A stretch of DNA of 64,000 nucleotides from Morinoia aosen (lineage: Eukaryota > Arthropoda > Malacostraca > Amphipoda > Talitridae): assembly GCA_030386875.1 (NCBI GenBank), contig CM059577.1, forward strand, positions 24,625,038-24,689,037, written 5' to 3'. Positions 14,801 through 56,100 of this stretch are shown piece by piece. The notes beneath the pieces were generated by a model that saw only the letters and a list, made by a program, of their open reading frames with translations, was not told the DNA's origin and ran no database searches. The position numbers and the translations under genes were made by a program. How positions within the stretch are numbered: position 1 is the stretch's first letter; each line of letters starts with the position of its first letter.

Positions 14801-17800
14801 ATCACTCACCTTGCCTACTTTGCTAGCACCAAACCGTATCCTGGCTACCATCACTCACCTAGCCTTCTTTGCTAGCACCAACCCGTACCCTGGCTACCAT
14901 CACTCACCTTGCCTACTTTGCTAGCACCAACCCGTACCCTGGCTACCATCACTCACCTTGCCTACTTTGCTAGCACCAACCCGTACCCTGGCTACCATCA
15001 CTCACCTTGCCTACTTTGCTGGCACCAAGCCGTATCCTGGCTACAATAACTCACCTTGCCTACTTTGCTAGCACCAAACTGTATCCTGGCCTTGCCCTTA
15101 ACGAGCGTGGCCGCTATTTGCATGATAACCGCCTCAATAGTGTATGCAGAACTCCAGCCCTGTTTGGTGAGCAGCTCCATACATATTGCGCCGCCGACCA
15201 GCACATAGCCTCCTGTGATAACAGGCGCTACTACGCGTACAAAGGGAGGCTCAAACGGAAACAGCTCCTGCAAAAGAAGTTAGAACTTAGCACTTTAGAA
15301 GGAATTCTCCTGGAAGAACATCAATAATAACACAACTCTACGCTATTCCACAGCATTTTAGAGGGAGGCAGATGTTGAGTCGGAGCATTCTTGCGTAAGT
15401 ACTTGCTACCTTCATATAAAGAGTTAATTATTCAATGCTAGATTAATAACACAATTCATCAATGAGATGAAAATATCGGTCAGAGAGATTAGCTTGTCAG
15501 CATTCCATAGTACCGTCAGTTGCTGCAGCAGAGCTTAGCAATTAACAGAGCAAGCTGGTCTCCTTTATAAGCTAGATTCATTCATGTATAGCCATTCCCC
15601 ATTTCTAACTAAGCAATAGAATGTGAGAAAGATCGTTTCAACACTTTTCATCTTTAATAACAAAAACAAACTAGGAAAAAGCTGTCTAAGCAAATACTAC
15701 TATACGAATCAATAAATCCTGCTCACCGTCATGTAGAGATAAGTTATAGACAAGTAAGAATAGGTGTGAGTTAAAAAATAAATGGAAGTATCTTAACAAC
15801 GTGAGAACGTAAATGGTATGCACAGGTGTACACCAAGTGCACAGATAAATTATCCAGTCGCGCAAGAAACGGTGTGTGTGCAAGAAAAATGAAAGAAGCT
15901 CAACCAAAATTATGATAAAAGAAACCCCAACACGCCTTGACGATAATACCGGCCACATTAATACCAATGATAATAAAGCTTATCATTGGAATCACACTTT
16001 CCGACCCCTAGGAACGAGAAAACTTTCTCTACAAAAGTTTTTCCTTTCAACTACTGACAGTAACACACGACTAACTTTCACTCTGCTCCAAGTGACACTC
16101 GCATCTACCACCGTGAGTGTGAGGCGGGGCACAAGCATTTGTCATAGTCAGCCTTGCCTCCGTCACATCCAACTGGGTCCTACCAGCATACGAAATGCTC
16201 CTACACCGCCTTTGAAGCATCACATTAGGGCAATGGATCTGAAACTTACACCAGAGAGATTCAATGCTCACTTTTCTCCGGGTACGTGCTATGAAAGGGA
16301 GAAAATTTGAAAAACTAAAAAATCAGCTTTCTATGAAAAAGAAATGGTGGTAAGCAACTCTCGTCTCGTTGCCGCGGTGTCAGGTGCTTGAGAGCTGTGC
16401 AGCAGTAGGGACAGTCCTCACGCGTTGCTGACTTGCAGATTAGATTATAGGTTAGTTTAAGCCTCCCTAACCACTCCAAAAAAGAGCGTATCAAAGAGAG
16501 GAAGGAAGAAGGAACCATTTAATATGGATACTAGGGAAAGCGGAATCTATGCAGAAGGGGGCATAAAAACACTAAATTGGGGGAAAGACGTTCATGAAAC
16601 AAGATTAAAGTTGAAGAAGAAAGTAGTAGATGCTGAAAAAAAAAGGACAGCAGTGAACCGAAAAAGGTGGTTCTTGACATAGCAAAAAACATTTTATTTC
16701 AACAAAAAGAAAGCCTACCTAACTCTCAACTCAGGCCCTCACACATTTTCCCCCTGGGAGCGCCGACTTGCAGTAAACTGAGATAATCGTAGGAAAACAT
16801 ATGAGCAAATACTTTCATTTTCTTTATTCTGAGGCAAATTCATTACTGAGCAGCGTATCACTTATCATAGTTTCCCGTAACAAAAATTTCTTATGCCATT
16901 GCTACCGTGAAGCAGTAGGAACATAGGTTTTCTAGCGCTTCAGTGGCTTAGACAATATTGCATCTAAGGTCTCACATATTTCAAGTACAAGCTTCCCTAG
17001 ATCACTATAAATAATAAAGTAGTACTGACGTGCATTTAGGGTTAACATCAGTGTTATAAAACAAACAGGGTAGAAGCCGCGTCACAGAAGTGGTTCCACT
17101 GATCATTCACATATACAAGGTGTCTACTAAAATGTCCATCCTCCATTTTAGCATTTTTTCGCACCTTTTAGCACATTTGAAGATGAAATTTTAGCACCCT
17201 TTTCCTTCAATAAGCTCCAATGATAACCACATATATACACATACATACAAATACATATACCGGGCTTATCTTCCCGATGGGAGGGTAGCCGACAGCAGGC
17301 CACAATCACCACATTTAGTCACTAGGCGGCGAGAGAGGCAGCACTGGCCGCACCTGAACTGCCAGGATCAGCAGCAGCCCAGCACAACCACCTTCCACAG
17401 TCAGGCCCGACAGCCATAGCTGGTTTACCCCGACCGCTTCATTGAGCGCAGCCTCTCCCTCCGCACAGGACAGGTCAACCCCATCACACGCGGGCAACTT
17501 CCAGTACGTCGTCAAAAATAAAATTACCTTCTTATGCACTGCCCCCACTCACTTCTGTCCGCAGCCATCCCTCTCGCCACGTCCACAGTCAGACCCCTCT
17601 TATACAAAGCACGTTTCACCCCATCCATCCAACTCGTCCGTGGTCTACCTCGCGTTCAAAGACCACTCACTTCCGACATATATATTTTTCACCAGCCGCT
17701 CAACTTTCATTCTTTCAACATGCCCAAACCATCCAAGCACTCTTTCATCCACTCGTCTGCTCAACTTTTTGATAACACCCGTCTGCCCCCTAACCAACTC

Positions 17801-20800
17801 ATTCCTGATCCTATCTCTTCTTGTTACTCCATACATGCTCCTCAAACACTTCATCTCAAACACATCCAACTTCCTCCTCTCAGTTGCTCTCAACCCCCAG
17901 GACTCTGCTCCATACAACAAAACTGGCACAATCAAGCTTTCATACAGTCCCCTCTTAGCATTCATACTCAAACTCCTGCATTCAAAAACTTTCCTCATTG
18001 CACCCAATGTCTTATAGCCTTCACTCACTCGATGCTTCACTTCTACTTCCATACTATCCTTAACAGTCACATCCGACCCGAGGTACCTAAAATGCTCTAA
18101 CTCCTCTAAAACTTCACCATTCAACCTCACATCCCAAGTTCCAAACACTCCACCTCTTGAACATCTCATCACTTTACTTTTGTTCAATTTACCCTCAATT
18201 TCCGCCTTTTGCACACTCTACCAAACTCTGCAACCAGTCACCTCAGTTTTTCCTCTGAATCAGACACAAGCGCTTTATCATCTGCAAACAACAGCGGACA
18301 CACTTCCCAATACCTACCATTTTGTCCCACCAACTGCGCACCCTTTCCCAACACTCTGGCATTCACTTCTCTCACCACACCATCCATAAACAAATTAAAC
18401 AACCACGGCGACATCATACATCCCTGTCTCACACCTGTCACAACTGGGAACCATTCACTCACCTCATTCTCTACTCTCACACATGCTCTGCTATCAAAGT
18501 AGAAACTCTTGATCGCATTCAACAGTCTCCCACCCACTCCAAACAAGCTTACCACTTCCCATAGCGCCTCACGATCCACTCTGTCATACGCCTTCTCTAG
18601 ATCCATAAATGCCCAATATACATCATTTCCCCTTTAATAAGTATTTTTCATTCACCTGCCTCACAGCAAACATTTGATCCACACAACCTCTACCACACCT
18701 AAAACCACACTGTTCTTCAGCAAGCACACGATCCGTCAACACTCTCACTCTTCCAATTAAAACTCTTCCATGCAGCTTCCCAACAACACTCAGTAGACTT
18801 ATACCCCTAGAATTACTGCACTCATACCTGTCACCTTTCCCCTTGTACAACGAAACTACACACGCGCTACTCCAATCAACCGGCACTTTACTAGCCTAGA
18901 AACATACATTTAATAAACGTACCAACCATTCTAAAACCACATTTCCTCCTTTCTTTAGACATTCAACCGTGCAGCCATCCATACCTGAAGCTTTCCCATT
19001 TTTCATTTCATCCAACGCACCTTTCACCTCTGCACTTCTTATTCAACTTCTATTCCCTTCACCAAACACAGGCATTCTAACATCGCTTCCAACAGCTACT
19101 ACTATTGCAACCCTATCATCCCTCACGTTCAGCAGTTCTTCAAAATAATAAGTATTTCTCCACTAGCAGCCTACCATTTGCATCCTTCACTCTTGCCTCA
19201 TTCTCCACCTGACCTTTCCTAATTCTCTTCAATTCCTTCCAGAAAACCTTCCTTCTCTCCATGAAATCACCTCCCAACTTCATCCCCCATTTCTCATCCG
19301 CCGCCCTCTTTGCTCTCCTTACCGTTCTTTGTACCTCTTTCTTCCTCTCCTCATACTCATCGAAATTTTGCTGGTTGCCTCGTTGCAACCACCTTTCGAA
19401 CGCCCCCCGCTTTCTTCTCACAGCCGCTCCTACTTCTCCGTTCCACCATTCACTCCCCTTTCTAATCCCCCCTCCAACTTTCTTTACCCCACACACTTCC
19501 CTTGCACATTTCTTCACCGCATCTTTAAACAACTTCCATTCCCCTTCCACTCCACCCACCTCACTTTCCTTCACCCTCCCATACTCTACTTTCATCTTCT
19601 CCTGATACACTCACGCTCAGAATCATGCAATTTGCTTACATTCAACACCTCGCTTCCACTCCTCCTTTTTACACCTCCCCACATTCCACTTACTCTCAAC
19701 TTTCCTTCCACCAAGCAATGATCCGAAATCCCATTCATCTCACCACAGAACACATCCACATCGAGCAAACGACCCATCACTCCCCTGCTAACCAAAATAT
19801 AATCAATCAATGCTCTCTCCTCTATCACACCTCCATTCGTCCTCACATATGTATACTTGTTTATACTTTTTTCTGAAACAAACTATTCCCAATCACTAAC
19901 TCACTCTCTACACATAAGGAAGGAGGAAGGCACCATTTAATATGGAGATAAGAGAATAGCATATGACACAAAAGCTGCCCAGTGATGAAGCAAGCATCAA
20001 CCATCCCTATTCTGACTGAAAAAGAAGTTAAAAGTGGATCATGATTGAGATTCCCAGATTTTCCTTAACTTAAGTTGACTTAGCACTCGTGTATTTTCAA
20101 ACTGAAGCTGGACATCAATTGCAAACACTATAGAGAGCTCGAAAAATCGCAAACAGCACGAACCTTAAAATGGAAATTGAAGAGGATATGGTCAAGTCCT
20201 TCCTTTTCTTTGAGCTGCACCATGTCATTGTATAGAGGAGAGTCAGAATCGACAACTTGCAATTTGACGTTCCACTCGTAGAGGCTGTCATTGATGAGAT
20301 CTACACTGTATACTCCTGCACAAATAACACCATCATTATCGGAGGGTTCAGTTTAGCATGCATCAAAACTCCTGAGCTCCAACACGACCTGATAAGTTCT
20401 GTAGTGCCACAAAAGATGCCTGCAAAATTTAACCCGTGTAATTGCTCTACAATGCTAAATAGAACGGATTAATTTATTGTGGAATTCCCTTCATTCTATC
20501 ACCAGCCCATTGAAAATTTCATCCAAATATGGGCAATAACATTGCACACCTGACAAATAATATACTCGTAAATTACCATTAGTGAAAAATTACTCTGATG
20601 ACAGCACACGTGCTGGTCAAATATATACATATTACACACAGAGATTTATCATTAACATTTTACCAGTGCATTTAGAATTTACTGATAAATCATGCTTCTC
20701 CAACATGAAAATTTTATAACTTAGTTTGCGCCACCCTCTAGCCCCAACATAGACGTTCCAAAGAAAGAATGGAAGAAAGCCCTACTTAGTTTGGAATCAG

Positions 20801-23800
20801 GGGGATTTTATTAGGGGTAGCAAGTACTACTAGGAGACAACATGTCTATGCACAAAGTGTGTCCCCACACCAGGTGCATAGAAGCAGCAAGACTGAAAAG
20901 TTCATCGAACAAAATAACAGTCGGAGAAGAAATTAATAGATGCAGCACAAAGGACAGTATAACTCAAAAATGATGGTCCATAACAAAACAAAAAACCTAT
21001 GCTATTCCCAAAAAAGGAAGCATATGTAACCTTCAGCAAAGACATGGCCAAAAGTATTGATCTTGGAAATGCACCATATCTCTAATAATAAAACGACATA
21101 CAGATCAGCGTTGAAGACAGTTCTTACACAACACACTAACATAAAAAAAAAGAATTCATAGAGACCACCTTAGCATAACACACAAGGCAAATGCCCAAAA
21201 TAAAAAATAAGGCATTTCCTTTGGCACAAAACAGAAACATTTACACAACATCGAATACTAAAGTTATAAACAAGCACACACTGACCAAAGAAAGCACATA
21301 AACACCAACACGTACCGAAACAATACACATTAATACTATGACCAGAAAAACACATATACACACACACACACCAGCAAGTAGCAAAATAGCAAAGAAGCAG
21401 ACACTGACCAGCCTTGAAGGCGTCGCTCTTGTAAATATCCCTGAGTTCCTTCATGAGGCGGTCGGTGGCCTGCACGGTGCCGGAAATGGAGCCCCTGAGG
21501 TAGTCCTGCCGCTGGTTCGCCTTGAGCCGCACCAGTGTGGCCAGGTTTGTGGGGTCGATGCCGTCGTCCTTCTGCACGTTGGGGCTGTTGGTTGTGTCGT
21601 CCATGTCCAGCTGAATGTCTTCCTCCATGTCCTCCTCCTCTTCTTCCATCTCTGAGTCTTCATAATCTTCCATTGGTGGCTGGAAACAATTTTCTGGTTA
21701 ACTGTTTTGCACAAGGTCAGTCATTTTAATATTCCTTGATTTCTTGACATAATTTTGAAGCAATCGTCCATTGGTGGCTTTTTATGATTTTAGAGGTTAT
21801 TAATTCCATGGTATTACCTAGTTTACACAAGGAAAGTCATTTTAATCTCCTTAGTCATTTGTACATTGTGATTCTGAAATAATGATAGCGGTTGGCTACA
21901 AAGAAGCCTAAAATTTTTTAAATTTAAGCAAGCAGTTTTAGATTATTGCACAGAATTGAGATACTCATATCTCCATTTCTTTCAGTTAGCTCATTTCGTT
22001 TCTAGACATGTGACTAACTCTTGACAGTACATGGGTAACTTTTGCACCTCGTGTTTCTGGTTGCTTCAGTAACAGCACATAAACAGACAAATCCTCTCCT
22101 GGAAATGAACCACATACACTACAAGAAGCACATCGGTGGTCCCAACGCAAAACAGAACTCGGGAGCACACTTGCGACTGGAGAGCAATAACTTCATCATC
22201 CTCCTAGCAACAAAACTTGGTCTTATCCAAATCCTCCTTGATGCGACGAGACCAAAACACACAAACCAAAAATTAAGCAATGAGAATTAGCTGTGCAGCA
22301 CATCAAATACTGAATAGTTTATGTAACACTACAGCAGATATTACAGCAATTCATTAATATAAAATTACTAGGTCATGAGCATTAGTAGGTAATTGCAATA
22401 ATTGCTGCTCAAAGCTTACATAGGCAAACCAACTTTCATTTGCAGGTATGTGAACACAAGGAAATTCAAGTGCACCATGATAAACAAATGAAATCGTTTA
22501 GCCAGGACTCAACTTTTAAACTAACATTAAATCAGCAATGTCAGCTACATTTCACGAAATTGAATACAGAAGCACTAATCTATTACCCAACAAAACACAA
22601 TTCCTTAATTGCTTGGGGAGACTGTCCATCCCTAACCCCACCCATTAAATCAGATACCCGAACACTACATCTGACTGAAATTTTTGTTTCCTCAACATTT
22701 TGAATTACAATTTAAAATAATTGATCAAATTTCATTCCCATGTTATCCTAACACAAAAATAGAGGAATAAAAAATTTCGGCACTTTTGAACAGTTCCTAT
22801 AAAAAGTTTTCCCACAAGAATTATAGCTTGAATACAGTGAATAAAAAATCCCGTCATTTCAGAGGTGATGGTATCCTCCTCCATTTCATCAAGATGACCA
22901 ATCATGTGCAGCAGCTTGGTTTTATCATATTTTATGCACTTAAATTAATAATTTAAAACCCGTTTTCAGACAAACTGTAGCTGTAACTTGACAAAATACT
23001 CTCAGTGTTTTTTATGGAAATAAGCAAACTAGAGCTTATGATAATTTTTCCTCACATGGTGTACATATTTGAAAAGCCAGTTTAAAAATCTTATCCAGAT
23101 ATAAGATGTAGCTCTAACTCAGTTATCATTAACCATGATGGAAGTAGGCTAATGCCTATGGTGAAAAAGAAGACGATTGTCCCCACACAGCGCATAGTTG
23201 CTCACGTGTTTAGAGTCAGGAGCCACAGATCCTGCAGAAGGGGAAGGAGGCGGGAGCGCATTGAAGCTTAGCTTCTGCTCCAGGTCAGGTGGGTCATGCA
23301 TGCCAAACGAGGAGCACAGCTCCTGCAATAACAACTTCACCTGCTGCACCACCTGCAACAGATTAGATTAGATGTTACTATAAGCCTCCCTAACAGTGAC
23401 AAAAGGCGTTCCAAAGAGAGGAAGGAGGAAAGTGCTATTTTATATGGAGTTAAGGGAATGTGGAATCTAAACACGAGGTGCATGGAAACAGGAAGTTGAA
23501 GAAGAAAATAGTAGGTGCTGAAAAATAGGACAGCAGTCAACCAAAAAAGATAGGACACCAGTGAACCACAATAGATAGGACAGCCGTGAACCAAAACAAA
23601 AAACCTATTCTATTCAAAAAAAGGAAGGCCTACTTATCATTAGTTTAAAACCTCTCTTATTCCCCCAAGGAGGAATAATTCCCATAGATACAATAGTTGA
23701 ATCCCCCTGAGGGGCCACCCACAACAATAGCACACACAAGTCAGGATTTGTATCATCACTGATAATACCACCTCCATCTTACATGATTAGATATGCCTCC

Positions 23801-40065: not shown

Positions 40066-41704
40066 GATACATTTCATCTAATTTAGCCTACAAAAATAAA
40101 ACGCGATCATAAGCAAACTCCAAAAGGGAAAATGATCTCTACGGTTAATTTATTTGTAGGGGCCAAATTGAACTATTTTGACCAATTGAGTAACTCTGGT
40201 GGGAAGAAAAGAAGCGAAAGCTAATATATACAAAAATATATGAGAAGGCTTGTCCGTAGTGCGTCAGAAATATCCACTCAACTGTCAGTATTTTTGCGTC
40301 ATATTATTTGGCTCTACGCGAGCACCGATCTAAAACGGAAACTTCTTTGAAATAAAAGACACTAAAAATTCAACAGATGTGTTTAACATGAAAAAAAGAA
40401 CAACCAAACAAAGGTCATCAGACCCAGCGAAAATAAAAGAACGAGTGTTACCAACGCATAAGAGAATTTAATGATAGCTTAATAGGACGAAGAGGCAGAG
40501 AAGACGAGACAAATCTACTAAAGAAGTGGCAGCAGCAGAAGAAGGAAGCTTAGATGAAGCGAACAACGCTGTCTACTCACTACGCTCCAGACTAGCCGGT
40601 CAGAGACTTAAAACTTACACTTGAGCTGTACAAGAAAGTTACACACACAACTATCCTACGCTTGCACACTTAGCTAATATACGCGAGCAAACACATATCC
40701 AATTTACCCCTCACTCCTCAAGTTGCGAATTTTGACGTCATGCGGCATCTCAAATTGCTCATAGATGCATTAACTCACGCACAGGCTAACATCCAGAAAT
40801 GAAGGTCCTCACACACACACGTCTCAAAGCTACACGCACGCATACACTACATTCCTCACACCCACGTGTTTACGCCAGAAGCACATACACGTGACCATTC
40901 GCACCAACACTTGCTGACACGGTCACGCCAAATTTGTGCATGGTACACAAGCACAAACCTTCACACCAACCCGGCAATCAACACACGCGGATCTTCAGAG
41001 TCATTAAATAGCAAGTTACTCCAGAATGCTCAATGTAGAGTGCGCTCCCATCTTTAACAGCTGAACTACAGAAGAAGCCCCGCATAATAATATATCTCGC
41101 GTAGAAATTGACCATAGTTACATGGAATAGCTTCCACTCAAATTTTGAGTCAAGAATTGAACTATCCTGATGAAAATTTAAATTGATGACCTCGGAGAAT
41201 TTAGGATGGGTCTTATACGGTATGAGTTTACACGCGGACATCTTTCTTCACTGAACGCCAGGTAAAGAGTCCTCATTTTTGATGAGAAAAGCCTAGTAGA
41301 TTGAAGTGAGCGACAAGAGAAGTCTAGATGACCTCCCGCTATTTAAAAATACGCACAAAATAGTGCCATAGATAGCGTAATTAATAAGACAAAAGATCAC
41401 TCCCGAAATAGATTGAAAATTCACTCATAACAAAGAGAAGAAAGGCCACATACACAAACGCATCACCCTAAGTAAAATCAGCAGTTTTATAGCAAAAATT
41501 GGGTGAAGGAAAATAATCACAGTCCTAGGTCAAGAACGATTCATCAGGTGTGCTATGTTAGCCCGAGTGTTGCATTCCTGTAGCTGCCATTTCAATACAT
41601 GATTTCTTTGCATCCGTCTAACTTACGCTACACACTTGGTATTTCTAAAAGTTTTAACTCACTGTAACACCACCTACTCAAACTCAACCACTCTCACACT
41701 AACC

Positions 41705-42108
41705 ACTCAGCCCCACTTTCATAACAGCCAATTCAGGCCCACTTTCACACCAGCCATTCAGGCCCACTTTCACACCAGCCATTCAGGCCCACTTTCACAC
41801 CAGCCATTCAGGCCCACTTTCATGCCAGCCATTCAGGCCCACTTTTATGCCAGCCATTCAAGCCCACTTTCACACCAGCCATTCAGGCCCACTTTCATGC
41901 CAGCCACTCGGGCCCACTTTCATGCCAGCCACTCGGGCCCACTTTCATGCCAGCCACTCGGGCCCACTTTCATGCCAGCCACTCGGGCCCACTTTCATGC
42001 CAGCCACTCGGGCCCACTTTCATGCCAGCCACTCGGGCCCACTTTCATGCCAGCCACTCGGGCCCACTTTCATGCCAGCCACTCGGGCCCACTTTCATGC
42101 CAGCCACT
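41705..42108. repeat. 25-bp minisatellite
   Basis: About 16 units of gcccactttcatgccagcca plus ctcgg. Two unit forms occur: early units have ttcacaccagccattcag, later units have ttcatgccagccactcgg. Because 25 is not a multiple of 3, the open frames across it show 25-residue repeats in more than one frame. Confidence 0.95.
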
Positions 42109-43235
42109 CAGACACTCTCAAAGAAGAGCGGCGCTCATCGGGCCGACCGGAGAGATTTTCAAAATTGATGGCATCGAGAGAAACGAAGAAGTGCTGGCTC
42201 TTCAAAGTAATAGTGACTTTACAGCACGGACGAAAAGATTCATTATGTACACAGGTTTTGGAGTTACTCAGCTGAAGAAAAGGCAGCAGCTTGATTTTTT
42301 TAAGCATCTAATGATACAGGTCTGACGTCACTTACTCAAAAAACGTAATGTTAGATAGCTGCGCTACAATCTCGCGTTCTGATAGATTAACGCACCTAAA
42401 TAGTCCTTAACTTTTCTCACACATAGCCTCGGTTTTGAATTAAATGCATGGCTTTGGGTTTTAATGAACTATAAAGTTTTGGGTTTAAATTAAGCACGAA
42501 GCCTTGAGCTAATATGAAATATGAAGCACAATCAAGCAATGGAAATCTTAGGAGGGAATTCACTGCATTTTTTTCCCCCAGCTATAAAAAATATTTAATC
42601 AGAGATAACTTTACAATGAGATTCATCAGAATTTCAATTAACCTTCAATATTTAGCTTCATTTGGACATCGGGACCCTAACGTTAAGTTGGCTTCCAGAT
42701 AAAAGACAATACCTAGGCCAAAATGGGAGCGTTAAAACAGAAAAAAACACTTTCATCGAGCAAATGTTTATAGTGGATGAAAATAGCTTATGCATGCCTT
42801 GTTAGTTATGTACACAAACGGATCCAAAAAATTTTGTTCTTACACAAAAAGAAATGCGAGCGCAGTTCACCGGGAGCTCAGCAATACCTTGCATGCCGCA
42901 GTAACTACCTAGTAGGTCGAGACGTTTTACAATCCTGTCCCTCTGCTGCCCGTCAGAGCTCCAGACAGATGTTAGCATTGCTGCCGCATAAATCCAGTGA
43001 TCCACCCTCACATAGCCTAAGTTTTTAGCATGTCCTCTCAAATTAAAACTCCCTATGCAGCAAGAAATAGATCAAAAGCACGAAAGGGTGGGTTATTGAT
43101 GGTTAATTTAACCCATTCATACGAGAAATTTAGAACTTCAGGATGAAGTATGTTCAAAACTACACATAGGGAGCCATCTATGTCAAATTAAGCGAAATAT
43201 TTCCTCAAGAGACCCCAAGACAATGGCAACTGCAC

Positions 43236-44066
43236 TTAGCCACCCTGGAAATTGCTAGGGAAAGAAGGAGCTGCATGGGAAGCCGGAACGTGTGGCGGGA
43301 GGGGAGGCTTTGATGCTGCTTGCGAGCGTTGTTTGGCAGGTAAGGAGGAGAGCGGCGTTGAAGCTGCGAACTGGAGCACGGCGGGCGCGGGGAGAGTAAT
43401 TGTAGCTGTGCAATGAACTGCAGTTTTAGCATGAGCAATGGACGTCGTAGAATGCTGTACCGAGGGCTTGCAATGAAGCGCTGGTGTGGAGTGCTGAATT
43501 ACGGGGATGGAGGGGACCATTGGCGTTTGGAGCGGCGAAAATGTCGACGGAAATGAAGCCACAGAATAAGGGGCATTAGAAGCTGACAGGGAAACTGCAA
43601 TAGAAGAGAGCAGTGCAGTGGTGGCAGTACTGGGTAGCGCAGTGGCTGTAGTACCTGGCAGCGCAGTGGTCGCAGTACTGGATAGCGGAGAAGCAGCAGT
43701 AGACACACTGCCTTGTAGCCCCATAGAAGTAACATTGCCTTGAAGCCCCATAGCAGCAACATTACTTTGCAACCCTGTAGGAGTAACATTACTTTGCAAC
43801 CCTGTAGGAGTAACATTACTTTGCAGTCCTACAGTAGTAGTATTACGTTGCAGCCCTGCAGCAGCAACATTACTTTGTAGTCCTGAAGAAGCAACATTAT
43901 TCTGCAGTCCTACAGCAGCTACATTACTTTGCAGTCCAGCAGAAGAAGCACTGCTCTGCACAGCAGGGAGATTGGAGGGAGGCAGAGTGGCAGCTACACA
44001 CAGCAGCAACGACGGCTGCTGAGACGGAGGTGACGGCAACACGTCAGGAAGAGACGAGCGGTGTCA
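43236..44066 (-). other. 275-codon in-frame open extension after the ZSWIM8 stop codon
   Basis: The ZSWIM8 stop TGA (44064-44066) is followed by C. The same frame then continues HRSSLPDVLPSPPSQQ without a stop until TAA at 43236-43238. The extension is rich in Ser, Ala, Thr, Pro and Leu and contains nine copies of a GLQSNVAAV-like 9-residue repeat. No folded domain is recognised. It may be translated by stop-codon readthrough, reached by an unseen splice, or be 3' UTR that is open by chance. Confidence 0.55.
43695..43937 (-). repeat. nine 27-bp units encoding a 9-residue repeat
   Basis: Units read G-L-Q-(S/N/R/G)-(N/S)-(V/T)-x-x-x. The Gly codon is GGA or GGG, the Leu codon CTG, CTA, TTG or CTT, and the Gln codon CAA or CAG, yet all nine keep Gly-Leu-Gln. 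Divergence at those positions is purely synonymous. Confidence 0.9.
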
Positions 44067-44130
44067 TACTGAGCCTTGGTTCAAGTTAGCGGACAGCAAC
44101 TGCCACAGCTCCTTCTTGCAACACTTCGAT
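44064..44130 (-). CDS. ZSWIM8: ZSWIM8 exon 10 of window (annotated C terminus)
   Basis: Acceptor tttgagcag; the first base completes Arg. It reads SKCCKKELWQLLSANLNQ, then GSV and TGA. The human protein ends about 20 residues after the same point (KQTKELWQ), so this stop lies at the conserved place. TGA is followed by C, the leakiest termination context, and by a 275-codon open frame. Confidence 0.88.
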
Positions 44131-47100
44131 CTGCTCAAAGCGGACGCAGTTAACAACTAACTAACACACGATACCATAGGAGGCTACTAGAATCATATGA
44201 CACTAAGCTCCATCCGTATTGATAACGAGTTATGCATACCACTGTCTTCTCAAAGCTTCCCATGTCTAGAGCGTGAGTCTTAGGTACAGAAAAATAGTCT
44301 GAAAATAGTCGAATACTTTCATTAACAGAGATACGCAACTTTTCAAGTTGCCAAACTTTGCAGCTATGTCAGGCCCCACCTAAATTTTGGAATACAACAG
44401 GAGTTCTAATTGTGCAAATACACTAGAACATAAAACATGGCAGAGCAGAAATGAAACCTTTTTGTTCAAAGAGGATACTTCGCATTACAATTAGTCAACG
44501 AGTATCTAGCCAAAATATTGCCAATCTTGAGAGAAACAAGATAAGGGACCATGTAGTGCAGACTGTAAAGAACAGGGAACATATGCACAAGATGTTTCCA
44601 CATAGAAAACGCTGCACATAGAAAGAGTAAGTTAAGATGGAAGAAGAAAAAAAAAAAACAAGAAGAAGAGAGAGTACAGAAGGCATAAAACTGAATGAAG
44701 CAAAAAGGGCACAAAAGAAAAAAGCACTGAAAGCCTATCTACAGCTGACGTAACCCAACAGTGCCTACCTGGGGCCTGCAGTCTCCATAGCATAGGATAC
44801 ACAAACAAAACCAACCTTAACCTATTGCCTATCTTAGGTTTCTTTATGGGTCACATATTGAAAAAAATCTAAGACATCCATCGAGAAATTTAGTTTCAGA
44901 AAACCGGCCGATTTTGGAAGGAACTCTCAGAGCGGTTCCCTATTTGTGCTGCAGAACACACCACACCACACACCTGCGCAGGGACTGCAGCAGCTCGTTG
45001 AACTGCACAAGACCTCCCGGGGTCATCTGGAAAGCCTTGCGGGCGGTGCACATGATATTCACGAACTCGTCGTAGTCAGGGGCAGTGATGTAGTAGAGCT
45101 TCATGTGGCAGCACTGGATGAACCTGCCCAGTACACCAGTTCTGTGTTACTCGGTGGCTTTTTTAGTGCTGAATGTAAGGTTCTTGGATATTTCCAGGCC
45201 CTCTGTCTAATGTTAAGTCAAAGTTTCTGGAGGACATTGTGTAATAAAGAAAGCAAATTAGTAGTGGTATATCGAGTAAATATTGTGCTGTGATTTGAAA
45301 TGGCTTAGCAGGTTTGAGTATAAGATTCTCAACTATATTGTACGATGAAGAGATGTAACACACGTTATGATTCTCTAAGAGAATTAGTGTGAATAGGTAC
45401 AATCTAGGAAAATAATACTTAGTCAATTGGAAATGCAAGGTATTTCTCATGATGAGTAAAGCGGACAATACATGAAGCCTCCAACAAAATGAAGCAGTGA
45501 CAAATATACACAACTATTTCCTTTAATGTGAAGATGGAACACTTTAAGCCAGAACTGAATGCTTCTACAATATACATGATTTTCCCTTGGAATAGGCAAC
45601 GCTGAAAATAAATTTATAGCTGCTACACTCGGAGATGAAGAAGACAATATCTCACATTTGCTGGCACTTCTGGACAAGGGGCTGAAGGATCTGGGATGAT
45701 CTGAGCTGGTACATGGCCTGCTGCTGTTGTTGCTGTTGCTGCTGCTGTTGGCGGGTGAGGTAGTGCGACACCTCCTGCGCCAGCTCGAACAGGATGAAGG
45801 GCGACACGACGCTGTTCACGCAGCACAGGCAGAACCTGTGCAGGTACTGCGTGCCTGCTCGACACGACGCAACGCATCACATTTCAGTTGAGTAGTGTCA
45901 CAGTGATGGTTTAAGCGCTCGCGTTTGTTGCTAGGAAATTAAATTGGCAGTGATGGTTTAAACACTCCCGTTGGTTGATAGGAAATTAAGTCTGCAGTGA
46001 TGATTTCAACACTAGGGTTGGTAGGAAATTAAGTCCACAGTGATGATTCCAACACTAGGGTTGGTAGGAAATAAAGTCCACAGTGATGATTCCAACACTA
46101 GGGTTGATAGGAAATGAAGTCCACAGTGATGATTCCAACACTAGGGTTGGTAGGAAATAAAGTCCACAGTGATGATGGCAACACTAGGGTTGATAGGAAA
46201 TAAAGTCCACAGTGATGATGGCAACACTAGGGTTGGTAGGAAATTAAGTCCACAGTGATGATTTCAACACTAGGGTTGATAGGAAATAAAGTCCACAGTG
46301 ATGATTCCAACACTAGGGTTGGTAGGAAATTAAGTCCACAGTGATGATTTCAACACTCGGGTTGGTAGGAAATTAAGTCCACAGTGGTGATTCCAACACT
46401 CGGGTTGGTAGGAAATTAAGTCCACAGTGATGATTTCAACACTCGGGTTGATAGGAAATAAAGTCCACAGTGATGATTCCAACACTAGGGTTGGTAGGAA
46501 ATAAAGTCCACAGTGATGATTCCAACACTAGGGTTGGTAGGAAATTAAGTCCACAGTGATGATTTCAACACTCGGGTTGATAGGAAATAAAGTCCACAGT
46601 GATGATTCCAACACTAGGGTTGGTAGGAAATAAAGTCCACAGTGATGATTCCAACACTAGGGTTGGTAGGAAATAAAGTCCACAGTGGTGATTCCAACAC
46701 TCGGGTTGGTAGGAAATTAAGTCCACAGTGATGATTTCAACACTAGGGTTGGCAGGAAATTAAGTCCACAGTGATGATTTCAACACTAGGGTTGGTAGGA
46801 AATAAAGTCCACCGTGATGATTCCAACACTAGGGTTGGTAGGAAATTAAGTCCACAGTGATGATTTCAACACTAGGGTTGGCAGGAAATTAAATTCGTAG
46901 CAACTCTAAGTATTCATTCCAGCATTTGAGTTTGTATGAAAAGAGATATGTGGGGGATAATACATAGGAGAAACGCTGTCAACATTAAATAACGTTATTA
47001 TATTAGTTTACCTACTCCCCAGGGTAAACAAAAATAATTTCAGGAGTGTGAAAAGAGGGATTAATTAGTATGGACTGTAGAAAACGGGGAATCTATGCAC

Positions 47101-50100
47101 GAGGTGTATTCTCCCACAGATTATGCCGCACATAGAACCAACAAATTAAGAAGAAAAAGGAAGAAACGAATAAGAAGAGACAGCAAAGGCTGGAAAACCT
47201 AAAGATGTAAAGTGAGAATCATGAAAGATAGAAGGCCCGAAGATCCATCAACGGCTGAGGGATCTAACAGTATTTTCCAGGAGGCACCAGCCCCCATAGA
47301 ATAGGAAACACAAACCTACCTAACCTAAACCTATTGCCAAGGGGTGTACATATAACATTAGGCTTTGAAGAATGAATGCAAGCAAAAGCATGAAATTTTT
47401 TCACGTTCTACATTTTCAGGGCTCATGCCAGTGTTGCGTAACTGGAGCACAACTGATGAATTAACACATCCACTATATGATACTACACAGTTGTTGCTTG
47501 GTTGGTTGGTGCGTGTGTCTGTGACGCCCACAAGGATGCTTAATGACCGTATCTGTGATACGAGTTTCACCAGGGCACAAGTGCAAGAATATTTCAATCG
47601 CGGGTACTATTAAGATCGATATATTTGGACGTCATCCACATCTGCAAGATTTATTTAAGGCAAATATCAAATCCCGTCATTTTTGACGAGCCGTGTACAC
47701 TGGTAATACAATAAAATGCAAAGACAATACTCCAATAAGTCTCCTGCACACAGTATCACAACAGGAGACTGAATGATGAAAGTTTTACGGCGCTTAAAAC
47801 GATAATGTGAATGACAGCAAACCAAATGCCTTAATTGCGTGCCTCTCAGTGACAATGTTTTAAGACAAACATAGGCCTCGAAGCCACCTCCCAAAGCACA
47901 CCACACTTCAATGCAAAAGCTACCTCATATAAAAAGATAGAAAAATACACAACTGACCGAGTTTCTTAGCAACACCGAGGAGCCACTTGATGTCCTCGCC
48001 GTAGGGCGGGTGCGGGGCGTACTTGTTCTGGGGCCTGTCGTCCTGCACGCGCCGGGACAGCGTCTCCATGGCCAGCATGCCCACGCGGTACGCGTTCATC
48101 AGGTACTGCACGCTGCGCTGCTGCTGCTGCTGCTCTGCCACAACCTGCACGTGTTGCGTTCGAAATAAGTTTGAGCCACGACATAGGTGTTCCAAAGGGA
48201 GGAAAGAGGCAAGCGCCCTGCACGCCGCATTGCTGCTGCTGCTCTGCCACAACCTGCACGTGTCGCGTTCGAAATAAGTTTGAGCCACGACATAGGTGTT
48301 CCTAAGGGAGGAAAGAGGCAGGCGCCCTGCACGCCGCATTGCTGCTGTTCTGCCACTACTTGCATACTGTGTTACGTTGGAAATAAGCTTGAGCCACGAC
48401 AAAGGTGTTCCAAAGAGAGGGAAGCACCCCATACTATGGAGTAAAGGAAACAGGAAATATACGCACAAGACATTAATCCTGCGCATCGAAACAGTAAAAC
48501 TGATGGACGTTCTAGACTCAACATAGAAATTCAGGGAGCATTAGGTGATGAAGGAAAAAAGATGACAAAGATCCCCATAAAGATGGTCCGTAACAAAACC
48601 AAAAACGTTCAGTCAACATAAAGAAGGCCTCCCTAATCTTTAGCACAGAACCTCTCATCTTCCTCCTGGGAGTGCTAATGCCCATAGATACAGTAACTAT
48701 ATTCTATTGAGATGGGATACATCATGCAGTGATCAGGCTCGGGCCGTATGGAGTGAGCCCGGTGGAAATGTGTGTTGCCAATCGTCTAACCGCAATGAAA
48801 CAAAGCATTGGGAGATGTTCAATGAAAAACGAACCAAATATTCATTAATTTGACCCTGGTGAAAATGTTACCAGCACTCTATCACTATGCATCTTCCTAT
48901 GTAAAATTAGAGACCTAAAGAAATGTTGCATAGATAAACGCATGAAAAAATTTGTCTAGGGTGACATCAGCCACTAACGTAATTGAGTAGACGTAATGTA
49001 GATGAAAGTTCTCATGAAACTCGGACAATTAAATGTTTTTTTCAACTAAAATTAACATGTTTACTATTTCGTTACACTGAGAATTGGAATGCACCCAGCA
49101 CAGTACAATATTTTCATCATTAATATTACACACAGGGACTCAACAATGACATCACAAAATCTTTATTTCTAAGTATTCTAGAAATTATTCACAACAGTTT
49201 ACGCAAAATACTATGATTCAAAGACCTCATTTGATCACAGCACTTTTTGAGTCCTCTCAGAACAGTTTTTAAAATAAGGTATAAAATTAGGAAAGCATTT
49301 TCAGGAGATTGTAGCATACAGCATAGGGCTTTTCTTACTCTCTCCTGCACAGGCTACAAGACAACGCCGTTAACACGAGACATAAGAAAAATTCTCAATA
49401 TAACTATAGAAAATCATGATTTTGCGCCCTCACAGCACCACACACAAGATGTTAAATTATACGCCCAACAGTCGACGGATTGGATGAATTAAAATTTAAT
49501 TCCAAGGCAGTGTCGTCATTCACACACACGAACTTGGAAATAAAGATCAAATCTGAACTTCAAAATAAAAATTTTCAGTAATAATAAAATATCAAAATAG
49601 CCCATTGCCTTTTGCAGTTCAGTGGAAAAGGGAACAACTTGAAAAAATGCACCTGGAGATACAAAACCACAAAAACCTGAAAACTTTCCGAGTTTTAATA
49701 CGAAACTTGAAGGAAGCAAATTTTAGACCAGAGGTTCCAACTTTTTCTGCCCTGTATCCCTAAAAAAATTCGATTCGAACCTCGTGCCCACTGAAATAAA
49801 AATGCCAACAAATAGCCAATATCCTGGTATTAACCGGGACTTTTCTCGCACCCCTTGGAATATCGACTCTCACCCCAGGTTGGGAACCTCTGCCATAAAC
49901 GATATACAAAAATGCTTTACAGTAACATCAGTCAACTACGTATAACACTCACCTGTTGTTGCGGCTGCTGCTGTTGAGGATGTTGCTGTTGTTGAGGGTG
50001 CTGCTGCTGTTGTTGTTGCAGATGTTGCTGTTGCTGCTGTTGTTGTTGAGGATGTTGCTGCTGTTGAGTGTGTTGCTGCTGCTGCTGCTGAGGGTGTTGC

Positions 50101-53100
50101 TGCTGCTGCTGTTGTTGTTGTTGTTGTTGTGGGTGTTGCTGGAGCTGTTGCTGAGGAGGGGGAGGGGGCTGAGGCTGCATATGTTGCGGGTGTTGCATGG
50201 CAGCACCTGCAAACAGAATAAACAACATACGAGAGATTTTATAATAATATTCTTTAGAAAAGCTGTCATTAGTTGTATTAGTATTTTGAAGACTGCTGAC
50301 ATGAAGTAAAGATCTGTCAGCTAAATTAAAAATCGCGTCAGTTGTATTAGAGATTCATAAGCTGAAATAAAGGTCCCTTCGGTTGAATTTAAGAGTCCCG
50401 TCAATGGAATTAAAGGTCCCGTCAATGGAATTAAAGGTCCCGTCAATGGAATTAAAGGTCCTTTGTCAGTTGAATTAAAGGTCCTTTGTCAGTTGAATTA
50501 AAGGTCCTTTGTCAGTTGAATTAAAGGTCCTTTGTCAGTTGAATTAAAGGTCCTTTGTCAGTTGAATTAAAGGTCCTTTGTCAGTTGAATTAAAGGTCCT
50601 TTGTCAGTTGAATTAAAGGTCCTTTGTCAGTTGAATTAAAGGTCCTTTGTCAGTTGAATTAAAGGTCCTTTGTCAGTTGAATTAAAGGTCCTTTGTCAGT
50701 TGAATTAAAGGTCCTTTGTCAGTTGAATTAAAGGTCCTTTGTCACTTGAATTAAAGGTCCTTTGTCACTTGAATTAAAGGTCCTTTGTCACTTGAATTAA
50801 AGGTCCTTTGTCACTTGAATTAAAGGTCCTTTGTCACTTGAATTAAAGGTCCTTTGTCACTTGAATTAAAGGTCCTTTGTCACTTGAATTAAAGGTCCTT
50901 TGTCAGTTGAATTAAAGGTCCTTTGTCAGTTGAATTAAAGGTCCTTTGTCAGTTGAATTAAAGGTCCTTTGTCAGTTGAATTAAAGGTCCTTTGTCAGTT
51001 GAATTAAAGGTCCTTTGTCAGTTGAATTAAAGGTCCTTTGTCAGTTGAATTAAAGGTCCTTTGTCACTTGAATTAAAGGTCCTTTGTCACTTGAATTAAA
51101 GGTCCTTTGTCACTTGAATTAAAGGTCCTTTGTCACTTGAATTAAAGGTCCTTTGTCACTTGAATTAAAGGTCCTTTGTCACTTGAATTAAAGGTCCTTT
51201 GTCACTTGAATTAAAGGTCCTTTGTCACTTGAATTAAAGGTCCTTTGTCACTTGAATTATAGGTCCTTTGTCACTTGAATTATAGGTCCTTTGTCACTTG
51301 AATTATAGGTCCTTTGTCACTTGAATTAAAGGTCCTTTGTCAGTTGAATTAAAGGTCCTTTGTCAGTTGAATTAAAGGTCCTTTGTCAGTTGAATTAAAG
51401 GTCCTTTGTCAGTTGTATTAAAGGTCCTTTGTCAGTTGAATTAAAGGTCCTTTGTCAGTTGAATTAAAGGTCCTTTGTCAGTTGAATTAAAGGTCCTTTG
51501 TCAGTTGAATTAAAGGTCCTTTGTCAGTTGAATTAAAGGTCCTTTGTCAGTTGAATTAAAGGTCCTTTGTCAGTTGAATTAAAGGTCCTTTGTCAGTTGA
51601 ATTAAAGGTCCTTTGTCAGTTGAATTAAAGGTCCTTTGTCAGTTGAATTAAAGGTCCTTTGTCAGTTGAATTAAAGGTCCTTTGTCAGTTGAATTAAAGG
51701 TCCTTTGTCAGTTGAATTAAAGGTCCTTTGTCAGTTGAATTAAAGGTCCTTTGTCAGTTGAATTAAAGGTCCTTTGTCAGTTGAATTAAAGGTCCTTTGT
51801 CAGTTGAATTAAAGGTCCTTTGTCACTTGAATTAAAGGTCCTTTGTCACTTGAATTAAAGGTCCTTTGTCACTTGAATTAAAGGTCCTTTGTCACTTGAA
51901 TTAAAAGTCCTTTGTCACTTGAATTAAAGGTCCTTTGTCACTTGAATTAAAGGTCCTTTGTCACTTGAATTAAAGGTCCTTTGTCACTTGAATTAAAGGT
52001 CCTTTGTCACTTGAATTAAAGGTCCTTTGTCACTTGAATTAAAGGTCCTTTGTCACTTGAATTAAAGGTCCTTTGTCACTTGAATTAAAGGTCCTTTGTC
52101 AGTTGAATTAAAGGTCCTTTGTCAGTTGAATTAAAGGTCCTTTGTCAGTTGAATTAAAGGTCCTTTGTCAGTTGAATTAAAGGTCCTTTGTCAGTTGAAT
52201 TAAAGGTCCTTTGTCAGTTGAATTAAAGGTCCTTTGTCAGTTGAATTAAAGGTCCTTTGTCAGTTGAATTAAAGGTCCTTTGTCAGTTGAATTAAAGGTC
52301 CTTTGTCAGTTGAATTAAAGGTCCTTTGTAAGTTGAATTAAAGGTCCTTTGTCAGTTGAATTAAAGGTCCTTTGTCAGTTGAATTAAAAGTCCTTTGTCA
52401 GTTGAATTAAAAGTCATTTGTCAGTTGAATTAAAGGTCATTTGTCAGTTGAATTAAAGGTCATTTGTCAGTTGAATTAAAGGTCCTTTGTCAGTTGAATT
52501 AAAGGTCCTTTGTCAGTTGAATTAAAGGTCCTTTGTCAGTTTGAATTGAAGGTCCTTTGTCAGTTTGAATTAAAGGTCCTTTGCCAGTTGAATTAAAGGT
52601 CCTTTGTCAGTTGAATTAAAGGTCCTTTGTCAGTTGAATTAAAGGTCCTTTGTCACTTGAATTAAAGGTCCTTTGTCACTTGAATTAAAGGCCATTTGTC
52701 ATTTGAATTAAAGGTCCTTTGTCAGTTGAATTAAAGGTCCTTTGTCAGTTGAATTAAAGGTCCTTTGTCACTTGAATTAAAGGTCCTTTGTCACTTGAAT
52801 TAAAGGTCCTTTGTCACTTGAATTAAAGGTCCTTTGTCACTTGAATTAAAGGTCCTTTTTCAGTTGAATTAAAGGTCCTTTGTCAGTTGAATTAAAGGTC
52901 CTTTGTCAGTTGAATTAAAGGTCCTTTGTCAGTTGAATTAAAGGTCCTTTGTCAGTTGAATTGAAGGTCCTTTGTCAGTTGAACTAAAGGTCTTCTGTCA
53001 GTTGAACTAAAGGTCTTCTATCAGTTGAACTAAAGGTTCTCTGTCAGTTGAACTAAAGGTCCTCTGTCAGTTGAATTAAAGGTCATGTAAGCTGAATTAA

Positions 53101-56100
53101 AGGTCATGTAAGTTTAATTAAAGGTCCTGTCAGTTGAACTAAAGGTCCTTTGTCAGTTGAATTTAAGGTCCTGCCAGTTGAATTAAAGGTCCTGCCAGTT
53201 GAATTAAAGGTCCTGCCGGTTGAATTAAAGGTCCTGCCGGTTGAATTAAAGGTCCAGTCAGTTGAATTAAAGGTCCAGTCAGTTGAATTAAAGGTCCTTT
53301 GTCAGTTGAATTAAAGGTCCTGCCAGTTGAATTAAAGGTCCTGTCAGTTGAATTAAAGGTCCTGTCAGTTGAATTAAAGGTCCTGTCAGTTGAATTAAAG
53401 GTCCTGTCAGTTGAATTGAAGGTCCCGTCGGTAGTATTACAGGTCTTTTTATTCAAACCAAGAACCTCATTATTGAGAAGTAGTAGTAGTATCATGGGTT
53501 TGCAGGCGCTTCAGTAACTCAAACTATATCGCACCGAAGGTCACATAATTTAATAAGTATCAGACTCTTTCAAATTACCACACAAGATGAACATCAATAT
53601 TATTTGAAACCTCATCAATGAAATTACTGGTCTGGTAGACGTAAGTAATTGTCAAGAAAACAAAATGTTCCCAGAACACGTAAATGTTTATGGCAAACAA
53701 ATCACCTCAACAGTTCACATACCTGTCTTCAGTTAAGCTATCCATCACAGCATTTTTCTTTACCGATTAATCCATACATAAATCCTCGAAATTTCTATTC
53801 ATTTTTAGCAAATGAGTCAACTGCAAAACGTTTACTATTTCAACACACATAAATTGAAATATTCTGTATACAAGCTAATAAACCGCAAAATTAATTCTAA
53901 CATCAAAATTGAAAACCTCCATATATTTCTCATGAACGAGTCGGTCAATTTACAGACCACAACGGACCAATGGAGCAGGAATGACACAGGATGACCATCA
54001 ACAAGAAACGACCAACAGAGGAGCGAGTAAATATTAGCAACTTCACAAACTCGAATAGACCGACAGCATGGAATACTAAAAAAAATTGCACTGAAACAGA
54101 AACAAACCAACGCCCAAACCAATAGAAATGGGAAGAGTTATTTTGAATAAGGTTAGAGACACAAACAAAAAGGAAATGGAAACGTGCTTTAGGATATGGA
54201 CAAGAACTAACAAATAGAGATGGAAACAAACTAAGTTACGGACAAGGACTAGAGATGTGACTCAAAAAAAAAAAAAAAAAAAAAAAACTATGCCGTTTAA
54301 AAAAAAAAACACTTTTTACAAAAAAAGAAAACATGGACAAAAAAATGTGGATATATTTTTTTTATATTTTGTCTGAAAATAACTCAGCAAGAAAATGAAC
54401 CAAATTACATTATTTGTTTTCATGTCAGATTACAAAATAAAACAGCATACTTCTTAATTTATGGTTTTCCATGATTTTATGAAATTGTTCATTTTTTGTG
54501 GTTTCATATTTTGATATTTCATTTATTTTACAATACATGTGAATGACCTTCAACTCCCAAAATGATGTGTTATAATAACATATCTTTACTTATGGTCATT
54601 GAAAGAGATGTGACCAAAAAACCATGCTTTTTTTAAATGTTATTTATATAGAAAATTGTGACTAAAAAACATGGATATTAATATATTTTATGTGACCTAA
54701 AAAATCCAATGCTGTTTTTTGAAAGAAACATTGTTTTTTTTACAGAAAAATCATGTTTAAAAAAACATGGCTATTATTATATTTTATGGGACCAAGAAAT
54801 CATTTTTTTTAAAACATTTAAAAAAATCATGACTAAAAAACACGGATGTAAATATCAGGAAAGTCATTTTTCTTTTATCGAATTGTCTTTAGAAACTTAT
54901 AAACAAAGAACACTGAGAATATTGAAATCATATTTTATTTGAACTGTACAAGGTCTTAGAATAAAATATCAACAAAGAATCTATTCACTCTTTAAACCTT
55001 TTGGAGACCAGCTCCATCCTCAGTTAGCCATTCAGTAAAATGTGGTAAAATGGACAGTGAATTTTCACTGTTCCTTTTACCACATTTTACTGAATGACTT
55101 ACGGAGGATGGAGCTGGTCTCCGAAAAGTTTTATAGAGTGAATAGAGTCTTTGTAGATATTTTATTCTAAGACCTGGTACGGTTCTAATGGATATTAATA
55201 TGCTTTGTGTGACCAAAAAATCCATGCTGTTTTTTAAACATGTTTTGGTTACAAAAAGTCATGACTAAAAAACACGGATATTAATATACTTTATTTGACC
55301 ATAAACAACCATGCTGCTTTTTGAAAAACATCTTTTTATAGAAAAATCATGACTAAAAAACGTTTATATTAATGTATTCTATATGCCAAAAAAAAACATG
55401 CTGGTTTTTTAAATCATGTTATCTTTACCAAAAAAATCATGACTAAAAAACATGGTTAATGACTTTTTGTGAAAAAACATGGTTTATGAAAATGTCACGG
55501 TTTTTTTGGTCAGATAAAATATATTAACACTTATACTTTTTTAGTCATGTTTTTTCTGTAAATAAACATTTTTTTTCAAAAAACATGATTTTTTGGTAAC
55601 ATAAAATAAATTAATATCCATGTTTTTCTTAAAAAGAAGTCATGACCAAAAAATTAATAATAACTTCTTTGTAAAAAAAAACATGCTTTTAAAAAACAAT
55701 GATTTTTTGGTGACATAAAATACATTAATATCCATGATTTTTAAGATACTATTTTTTATGAAAAACATGTAAAATAAAACAGAATGGTTTCTTTGGTCAC
55801 ATAAAATATATTCATATCCAGGTTTTCTTATACATGATTGTTTGTGAAAAAACATGTATTTTAAAAAACATCATGGATTTTTTGGTCTCATAAATATATT
55901 ATTCATGTTTTTTTAGTCATGATTTTTTAGTAAAAAACATGTGTTTTAAACCCTTCACTGCATAGTGTGTCGAATATGACACAAACTGAATTTTTCTGTG
56001 TGTAGGAATAATTGATTAAAACCTGTGCATTTCTGCGGTTTGTACCGCTAATGAGACATACTCTACAAAAAATAAAAGCTAATGAAACATGTTCGACAAA

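Follow-up and report, generated by a model that had tools for sequence, protein, structure and literature searches.

The C-terminal end of ZSWIM8

The analysed window (that is, the whole 64-kb stretch of DNA from the amphipod Morinoia aosen) carries on its minus strand the closing coding exons of a gene that encodes a ZSWIM4-8_C domain and has its closest similarity to ZSWIM8, the same gene as Dora, Pelado and EBAX-1, with which it shares this domain and the KELWQ end. An upstream coding exon (45656-45854) is followed by a penultimate coding exon of symmetric phase 2 (44974-45123) and by the last coding exon (44064-44130), the acceptor of which ends at 44131. This last exon finishes an Arg codon and then encodes SKCCKKELWQLLSANLNQGSV up to a TGA at 44064-44066; the residues that precede the stop read ...RSKCCKKELWQLLSANLNQGSV, and the stop itself stands in the context GTA TGA CAC C (that is, its next base is C).

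The match to the Pfam family ZSWIM4-8_C (PF21055, E = 7.8e-59) reaches the end of the profile (173/173) 13 residues ahead of the TGA, and the alignment with human ZSWIM8 (PDB 9rwz_N; E = 1.3e-43, query residues 3-179), the sole PDB sequence at E <= 0.001, extends through KELWQ and a few residues more. In a ZSWIM paralogue of the same genome (L011; PF21055, E = 2.6e-64), the profile ends 9 residues ahead of the stop, the protein closes with KKKLMSLVRERFG, and 9 more in-frame stops occur within the next 162 codons. Given that the Pfam profile, the human match and the paralogue all finish near it, the TGA at 44066-44064 is, as far as this is testable from sequence, the normal C-terminal end of the ZSWIM family. 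The preliminary description of this locus had placed the stop where animal ZSWIM8 proteins end, which agrees with these three comparisons, but it had put the stop about 20 residues after KELWQ, where the actual spacing is 11 residues.

Other features of the gene and its surroundings can be noted in passing. A 43-bp minisatellite (45973-46892, about 21 copies) sits between two ZSWIM8 exons, a 23-bp satellite (50363-53425, about 135 copies) adjoins a polyglutamine exon of the gene, and a 109-bp tandem repeat (48122-48424; 2.8 copies, 90% matches) enters a ZSWIM8 exon, the 3' splice site of which it seems to copy, giving several candidate acceptors in a row. Downstream of ZSWIM8, a probable ubiquitin-conjugating enzyme of UBE2Q type has an exon at 21173-21697 of the minus strand, where 28 residues match 2qgx (E = 2.1e-6), and frames at 17648-19610 of the same strand resemble, by eye, pieces of a LINE-type reverse transcriptase.

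The open frame behind the stop codon

Past the TGA, the frame stays open on the minus strand for 275 codons (44063-43239) until a TAA at 43238-43236, as the preliminary description had reported. The encoded stretch ends in ...FPSNFQGG, and Ser, Thr, Ala and Pro make up 53% of its residues, in keeping with the earlier characterization of the tail as rich in these four; its charged residues comprise 0 Glu, 1 Asp and 7 Lys plus Arg. From the stop onwards, the frame consists of 42 codons ahead of any repeat (43938-44063), in which a held-out coding-phase signal is found; nine copies of a 27-bp tandem repeat of GLQSNVAAA type (43695-43937, 81 codons; 79% matches and 0% indels according to Tandem Repeats Finder); a 27-codon segment (43614-43694) with three copies of a 24-bp tandem repeat (array 43615-43687); and a 125-codon tail outside the reported arrays (43239-43613), in which the codon-phase composition is strong (position 2 is 55% C and 4.8% G). 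Units of the two tandem repeats account for about 108 of the 275 codons. In-frame ATGs occur at codons 105, 114 and 182, and none among the first 104. The GC content of the extension, 53%, lies between that of the flanks (38-39%) and that of three ZSWIM8 exons (57-65%). As for polyadenylation-type hexamers, no AATAAA lies between 44066 and 41800, and ATTAAA is present at 42599 and 42465.

How unusual such a frame is depends on the background that is chosen. Among the 7,516 stop-to-stop intervals on both strands of the window, 56 reach at least 100 codons and 7 at least 200, and the ZSWIM8 extension is the only one of at least 275. To this extent the earlier statement that other open frames in the region are short stands; it does not hold for the opposite strand about 0.9 kb downstream, where frames of 240, 190 and 147 codons at 41603-42325 arise from a 25-bp minisatellite. 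This minisatellite (41703-42111, 16 copies) is open in all three plus-strand frames and illustrates how repeats can imitate ORFs. When the sequence was shuffled with dinucleotides preserved (5,000 shuffles), the whole extension never stayed open in frame, whereas the non-repeat tail did so in 11.7% of cases and the initial 42-codon segment in 53.9%, so that the openness of the extension by itself is no more than moderately surprising given the local composition and the repeats. TGA followed by C represents 502 of the window's 7,522 stop triplets and is weak evidence when taken alone.

At the DNA level, a search of the M. aosen genome (1.99 Gb, 29 contigs) with the extension returned one match, the extension itself, which disfavours a mobile-element ORF as its source. 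The extension has no Pfam family, no PDB relative (E <= 1) and, by tblastn, no relative in viral contigs. A single-sequence AlphaFold2 model of the tail has a mean pLDDT of 41.7, which fits disorder and proves nothing, given that poor models are common when AlphaFold2 is run without an alignment.

Coding-like signals and routes into the frame

The coding evidence for the extension comes from a single genome, and the P values given here are nominal, with many tests having been run. Relative to shuffles that remained open, codon-phase composition stood out in the first segment (P = 0.019), in the tail (P = 0.0003) and in each half of the tail (P = 0.002 and 0.034), and a phase signal was also obtained for the 24-bp repeat segment (P = 0.003). 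A phase model trained on the tail alone recognized the first 42 codons (LLR +5.26 in frame versus -19.7 and -7.7 in the other sense frames; P = 0.0022 against open shuffles), and with held-out models each half of the tail recognized the other (P = 0.002 and 0.0003). Scanning 45263-42491 gave 44057-43263 as the top segment in this frame, that is, a segment beginning about 2 codons past the TGA and ending about 8 codons short of the TAA; two other analyses of the phase signal gave a profile of this form as well. Across 62 sources (the window and L018-L078, 287 kb with some loci overlapping; L001-L017 and L079-L088 excluded and N-bearing segments dropped), there were 2,741 open intervals with 42 or more codons; 13 of them scored as high at their start, as did 2 of the 182 with a C content of at least 33%, the ZSWIM8 extension being counted both times. 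Fifty exon pieces from the M. aosen genome served to train a discriminant (7,583 codons; of the 60 loci L017-L076, ten were excluded, namely eight whose match contained stops and, for sharing the scores of a neighbour, L058 and L061). Frame 0 outscored both other sense frames in the first 42 codons, in the 27-bp repeats, in the tail and over the extension as a whole, and 0.9% of the non-coding pieces (the window and L077-L078, a set that may include a few real exons) reached the score of those first 42 codons.

Other measures gave no such indication. Exon-like synonymous codon use was absent from the whole ORF (-6.3 log units), the 27-bp repeats (-17.0) and the tail (-4.1), and the first segment scored +1.0 in frame versus +3.9 in another frame. 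For the tail alone the discriminant fell slightly below zero, with one antisense frame scoring higher, and for the 24-bp segment its best scores lay in frames other than frame 0. The pN/pS ratio of the 27-bp repeats in frame 0 was 0.55, below a neutral star simulation (P = 0.02; 1,213 of 3,000 runs stayed open), but it does not single out this frame because the value is 0.43 both in sense frame 1 and in antisense frame 0. The synonymous codons and the repeat pN/pS, neither of which supports coding, would accord with a GC-rich non-coding 3'UTR in which minisatellites of 27 and 24 bp, both multiples of three, have expanded, so that an open frame with a phase pattern would arise incidentally from the repeats and from low complexity of a triplet-like kind. 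We regard this as a real possibility, though one that we would not bet on. It would also accommodate the near absence of acidic residues and the large share of recognizable repeat units among the codons, and, because stop-free minisatellites are numerous in this genome, a long repeat-bearing frame is not rare in itself. For example, stop-free 27-bp arrays were found at four places examined (L085-L088), and an array adjoining a myosin exon (L041) is open in three frames. At the protein level, the extension has at least 206 matches in the genome at E <= 1, one of them the ORF itself, and those examined (L002-L008, by the first residues of their frames, and L085-L088) are tandem arrays. What a non-coding 3'UTR explains less readily is that the 42 codons ahead of the repeats and, with held-out training, both halves of the tail carry the phase signal too, that this signal fades beside the TAA, and that GC is raised across the ORF.

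One of the arrays deserves a separate remark: L085 (G000:C7:13950000-13950900) is a homogeneous 27-bp minisatellite, a frame of which reads LQNNAALTT and resembles the GLQNNVASS repeat of the extension.

If the frame is translated, the ribosome need not pass the TGA to enter it. Alternative splicing, either through another acceptor for the last exon or through removal of a 51-nt intron bearing the TGA, would yield an isoform with a different C-terminal end, and we treat splicing round the TGA as a serious rival to readthrough, even though we judge it unlikely. Scored with generic splice-site weights, the genuine last-exon acceptor reaches 1.0 bits (five acceptors of ZSWIM8 range from -3.7 to 8.0). 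In-frame acceptors for the phase-2 donor at 44973 end at 43954, 43951, 43678 and 43255, among others; with this same donor, those at 43678 (a candidate AG at 43678-43679 of the minus strand; 3.1 bits) and 43255 (3.4 bits) outscore the genuine acceptor, and that at 43951 comes near it (-0.6 bits). However, this donor has no in-frame acceptor between the TGA and 43954, yet 44063-43952 already carries signal (P = 0.0034). The candidate 51-nt intron (minus strand, 44069-44019; GTATGA...CTGAC...CTCAG) is a GT..AG stretch with a branch-like CTGAC, the removal of which would drop the TGA in frame, although its donor is weak, scoring -2.5 bits and thereby falling under the four ZSWIM8 donors examined (0.7 to 8.1 bits). 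This short-intron version nevertheless keeps some plausibility, given that the coding signal within 44063-44019 is marginal (P = 0.046).

Two further explanations carry far less weight. The TGA could stem from a nonsense mutation of recent date or from a fault in the assembly, the tail being ordinary coding sequence in relatives, and this would leave a coding-like signature past the stop; in the available text of Jungreis and colleagues, cases of recent nonsense mutation and assembly error are indeed subtracted in their single-genome test for readthrough (PMC5100048). Because the TGA lies near the ends of the Pfam profile, the paralogue and the human match, the tail would have to have been gained and then cut at approximately the ancestral place, and we consider this explanation improbable. 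Least credible of all appears to be selenocysteine insertion at the UGA, or initiation at an independent downstream site, for which the in-frame position of the UGA and the three in-frame ATGs, respectively, could be cited. No SECIS family reaches its gathering score in the window and none matches 41800-44200 at E <= 2, the single weak match there being to a snoRNA model. As for a separate cistron, in-frame ATGs begin at codon 105, so that it cannot explain the early part of the extension, where signal is already present.

As the best reading of these observations, we rank readthrough of the TGA first, followed by a non-coding 3'UTR and then by alternative splicing. We infer that the codon-phase signal reflects coding and that access to the frame is by readthrough and not by splicing, and we tentatively propose, with confidence somewhat short of even, that the extension is a second ORF of ZSWIM8 reached by readthrough of UGA-C. 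The idea of a candidate readthrough extension, put forward in the preliminary description, accordingly gains from the family C-terminal end, the TGA-C context and the phase signals that run from the TGA to near the TAA, and finds no help in the synonymous codons or in the repeat pN/pS.

Known readthrough genes and possible consequences

The context and the host lineage are both compatible with readthrough of UGA-C. The available portions of two studies describe UGA-C as a leaky context (PMC5100048, PMC8417969), so that the earlier appeal to leakiness fits this locus, where a TGA followed by C is confirmed at the ZSWIM8 stop. According to the first of these, in the part accessible to us, readthrough genes favour TGA, a 3' C and long genes, and abundant readthrough was inferred for Pancrustacea (including the sole crustacean tested, Daphnia pulex) but not for a centipede or an arachnid (PMC5100048); the present malacostracan falls within Pancrustacea, which agrees with the earlier remark that arthropods use readthrough widely. 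Protein comparisons fit this placement of the host. The genome has at least 115 matches to a cuticle chitin-binding family and 17 to hemocyanin, and one hemocyanin stretch reaches 441 bits with 1hc1 and 436-440 with 6l8s, but 212 with 3ixv and 190 with 1lla. For an arginine kinase taken from one open frame, the top single-domain chains are 5zhq, 4bg4 and 8yx0 (633-641 bits, compared with 562-563 for 1m15 and 1rl9), with the two-domain chains 4rf6 and 4wo8 ranking higher by summed score. The high-scoring chains belong to spiny lobster, shrimp, crab and crayfish, and the lower-scoring ones to scorpion and horseshoe crab. Families of an insect allergen and of insect odorant receptors had 0 matches, which is no more than a hint of a non-insect host, as the control genomes gave none either; a cockroach (Blattella) as host is unsupported. 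A search of open-licence literature for stop codon readthrough in crustaceans or Daphnia, judged by titles, returned no matching paper.

In Drosophila and Anopheles, the genes with conserved readthrough (Jungreis et al. 2016, PMC5100048), as far as the available text describes them, resemble ZSWIM8 in TGA-C, in an in-frame second ORF of somewhat coding-like composition, in long introns and in a pancrustacean host. They rest on codon conservation across several species, whereas the ZSWIM8 case rests on one genome, and they are enriched in, without requiring, RNA structure within 100 nt 3' of the stop and the CAGCAGCA 8-mer. At the ZSWIM8 stop, downstream RNA folding falls short of significance (z -1.86; 11 of 200 shuffles fold at least as stably), and no CAGCAGCA 8-mer occurs from 250 nt upstream of the stop through the second stop, the nearest sense copies starting at 45726-45747, ahead of the final 250 bases of the mRNA. 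A closer parallel in form may be Dfr/Vvl of Drosophila, also a regulatory protein with a very long, disordered, low-complexity C-terminal tail past a single leaky stop, in which a readthrough tail of 286 residues changes activity, according to the available part of the report (PMC8417969). In contrast to ZSWIM8, the Dfr/Vvl stop is UAG, the gene is intronless (in ZSWIM8, splicing round the stop is possible) and its tail has been documented with antibodies, mass spectrometry and mutants (PMC8417969), whereas that of ZSWIM8 is predicted from sequence. For ZSWIM8 or CG34401 itself, no description of a readthrough isoform or C-terminal extension was found in the accessible text of the open-licence literature (including PMC9375228 and PMC12803205).

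Under readthrough of the UGA-C, a fraction of ribosomes would decode this codon with a near-cognate tRNA and continue for 275 codons to the UAA. The majority of the ZSWIM8 protein would stop at the usual C terminus of the family, and the remainder would gain, behind ZSWIM4-8_C, a long, nearly uncharged, Ser/Thr/Ala/Pro-rich and probably disordered tail, which may alter the assembly, the localization or the stability (that is, the half-life) of the ligase. A more specific version, which we consider doubtful, builds on the Gly-Gly with which the tail ends. C-terminal di-glycine degrons are read by CUL2-KLHDC2, and by analogy the two forms of ZSWIM8 produced by readthrough could differ by a disordered tail of 276 residues, the end of which resembles a KLHDC2-type degron, such that the level of readthrough would govern how abundant or how stable the ligase is. 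Nothing linking KLHDC2 C-degrons with readthrough was found in open-licence literature.

ZSWIM8 is, according to the available parts of the literature, an E3 ligase component needed for target-directed microRNA degradation, and the tail may therefore tune microRNA decay, as the preliminary description had suggested. If the extension is indeed reached by readthrough, the leaky stop would amount to a built-in translational switch on the microRNA-decay pathway, and crustacean readthrough, so far inferred in Daphnia pulex, would be tied to a specific gene of another crustacean. If, on the other hand, the frame is not conserved, the locus would illustrate how minisatellites mimic readthrough ORFs in repeat-rich genomes and would serve as a warning for single-genome scans.

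The genome searches yielded two further observations on the assembly (G000). On contigs C2, C4, C11, C14, C15 and C17, many family matches have a partner at a distance of 0.6-4 Mb whose score is the same or nearly so, a pattern suggestive of haplotype copies that were retained or of segmental duplications. On contig C27, at approximately 55.3-71.6 Mb, several COX1 frames lack the in-frame TGAs that the mitochondrial copies have, and this contig may be a bacterial contaminant or a symbiont super-scaffold.
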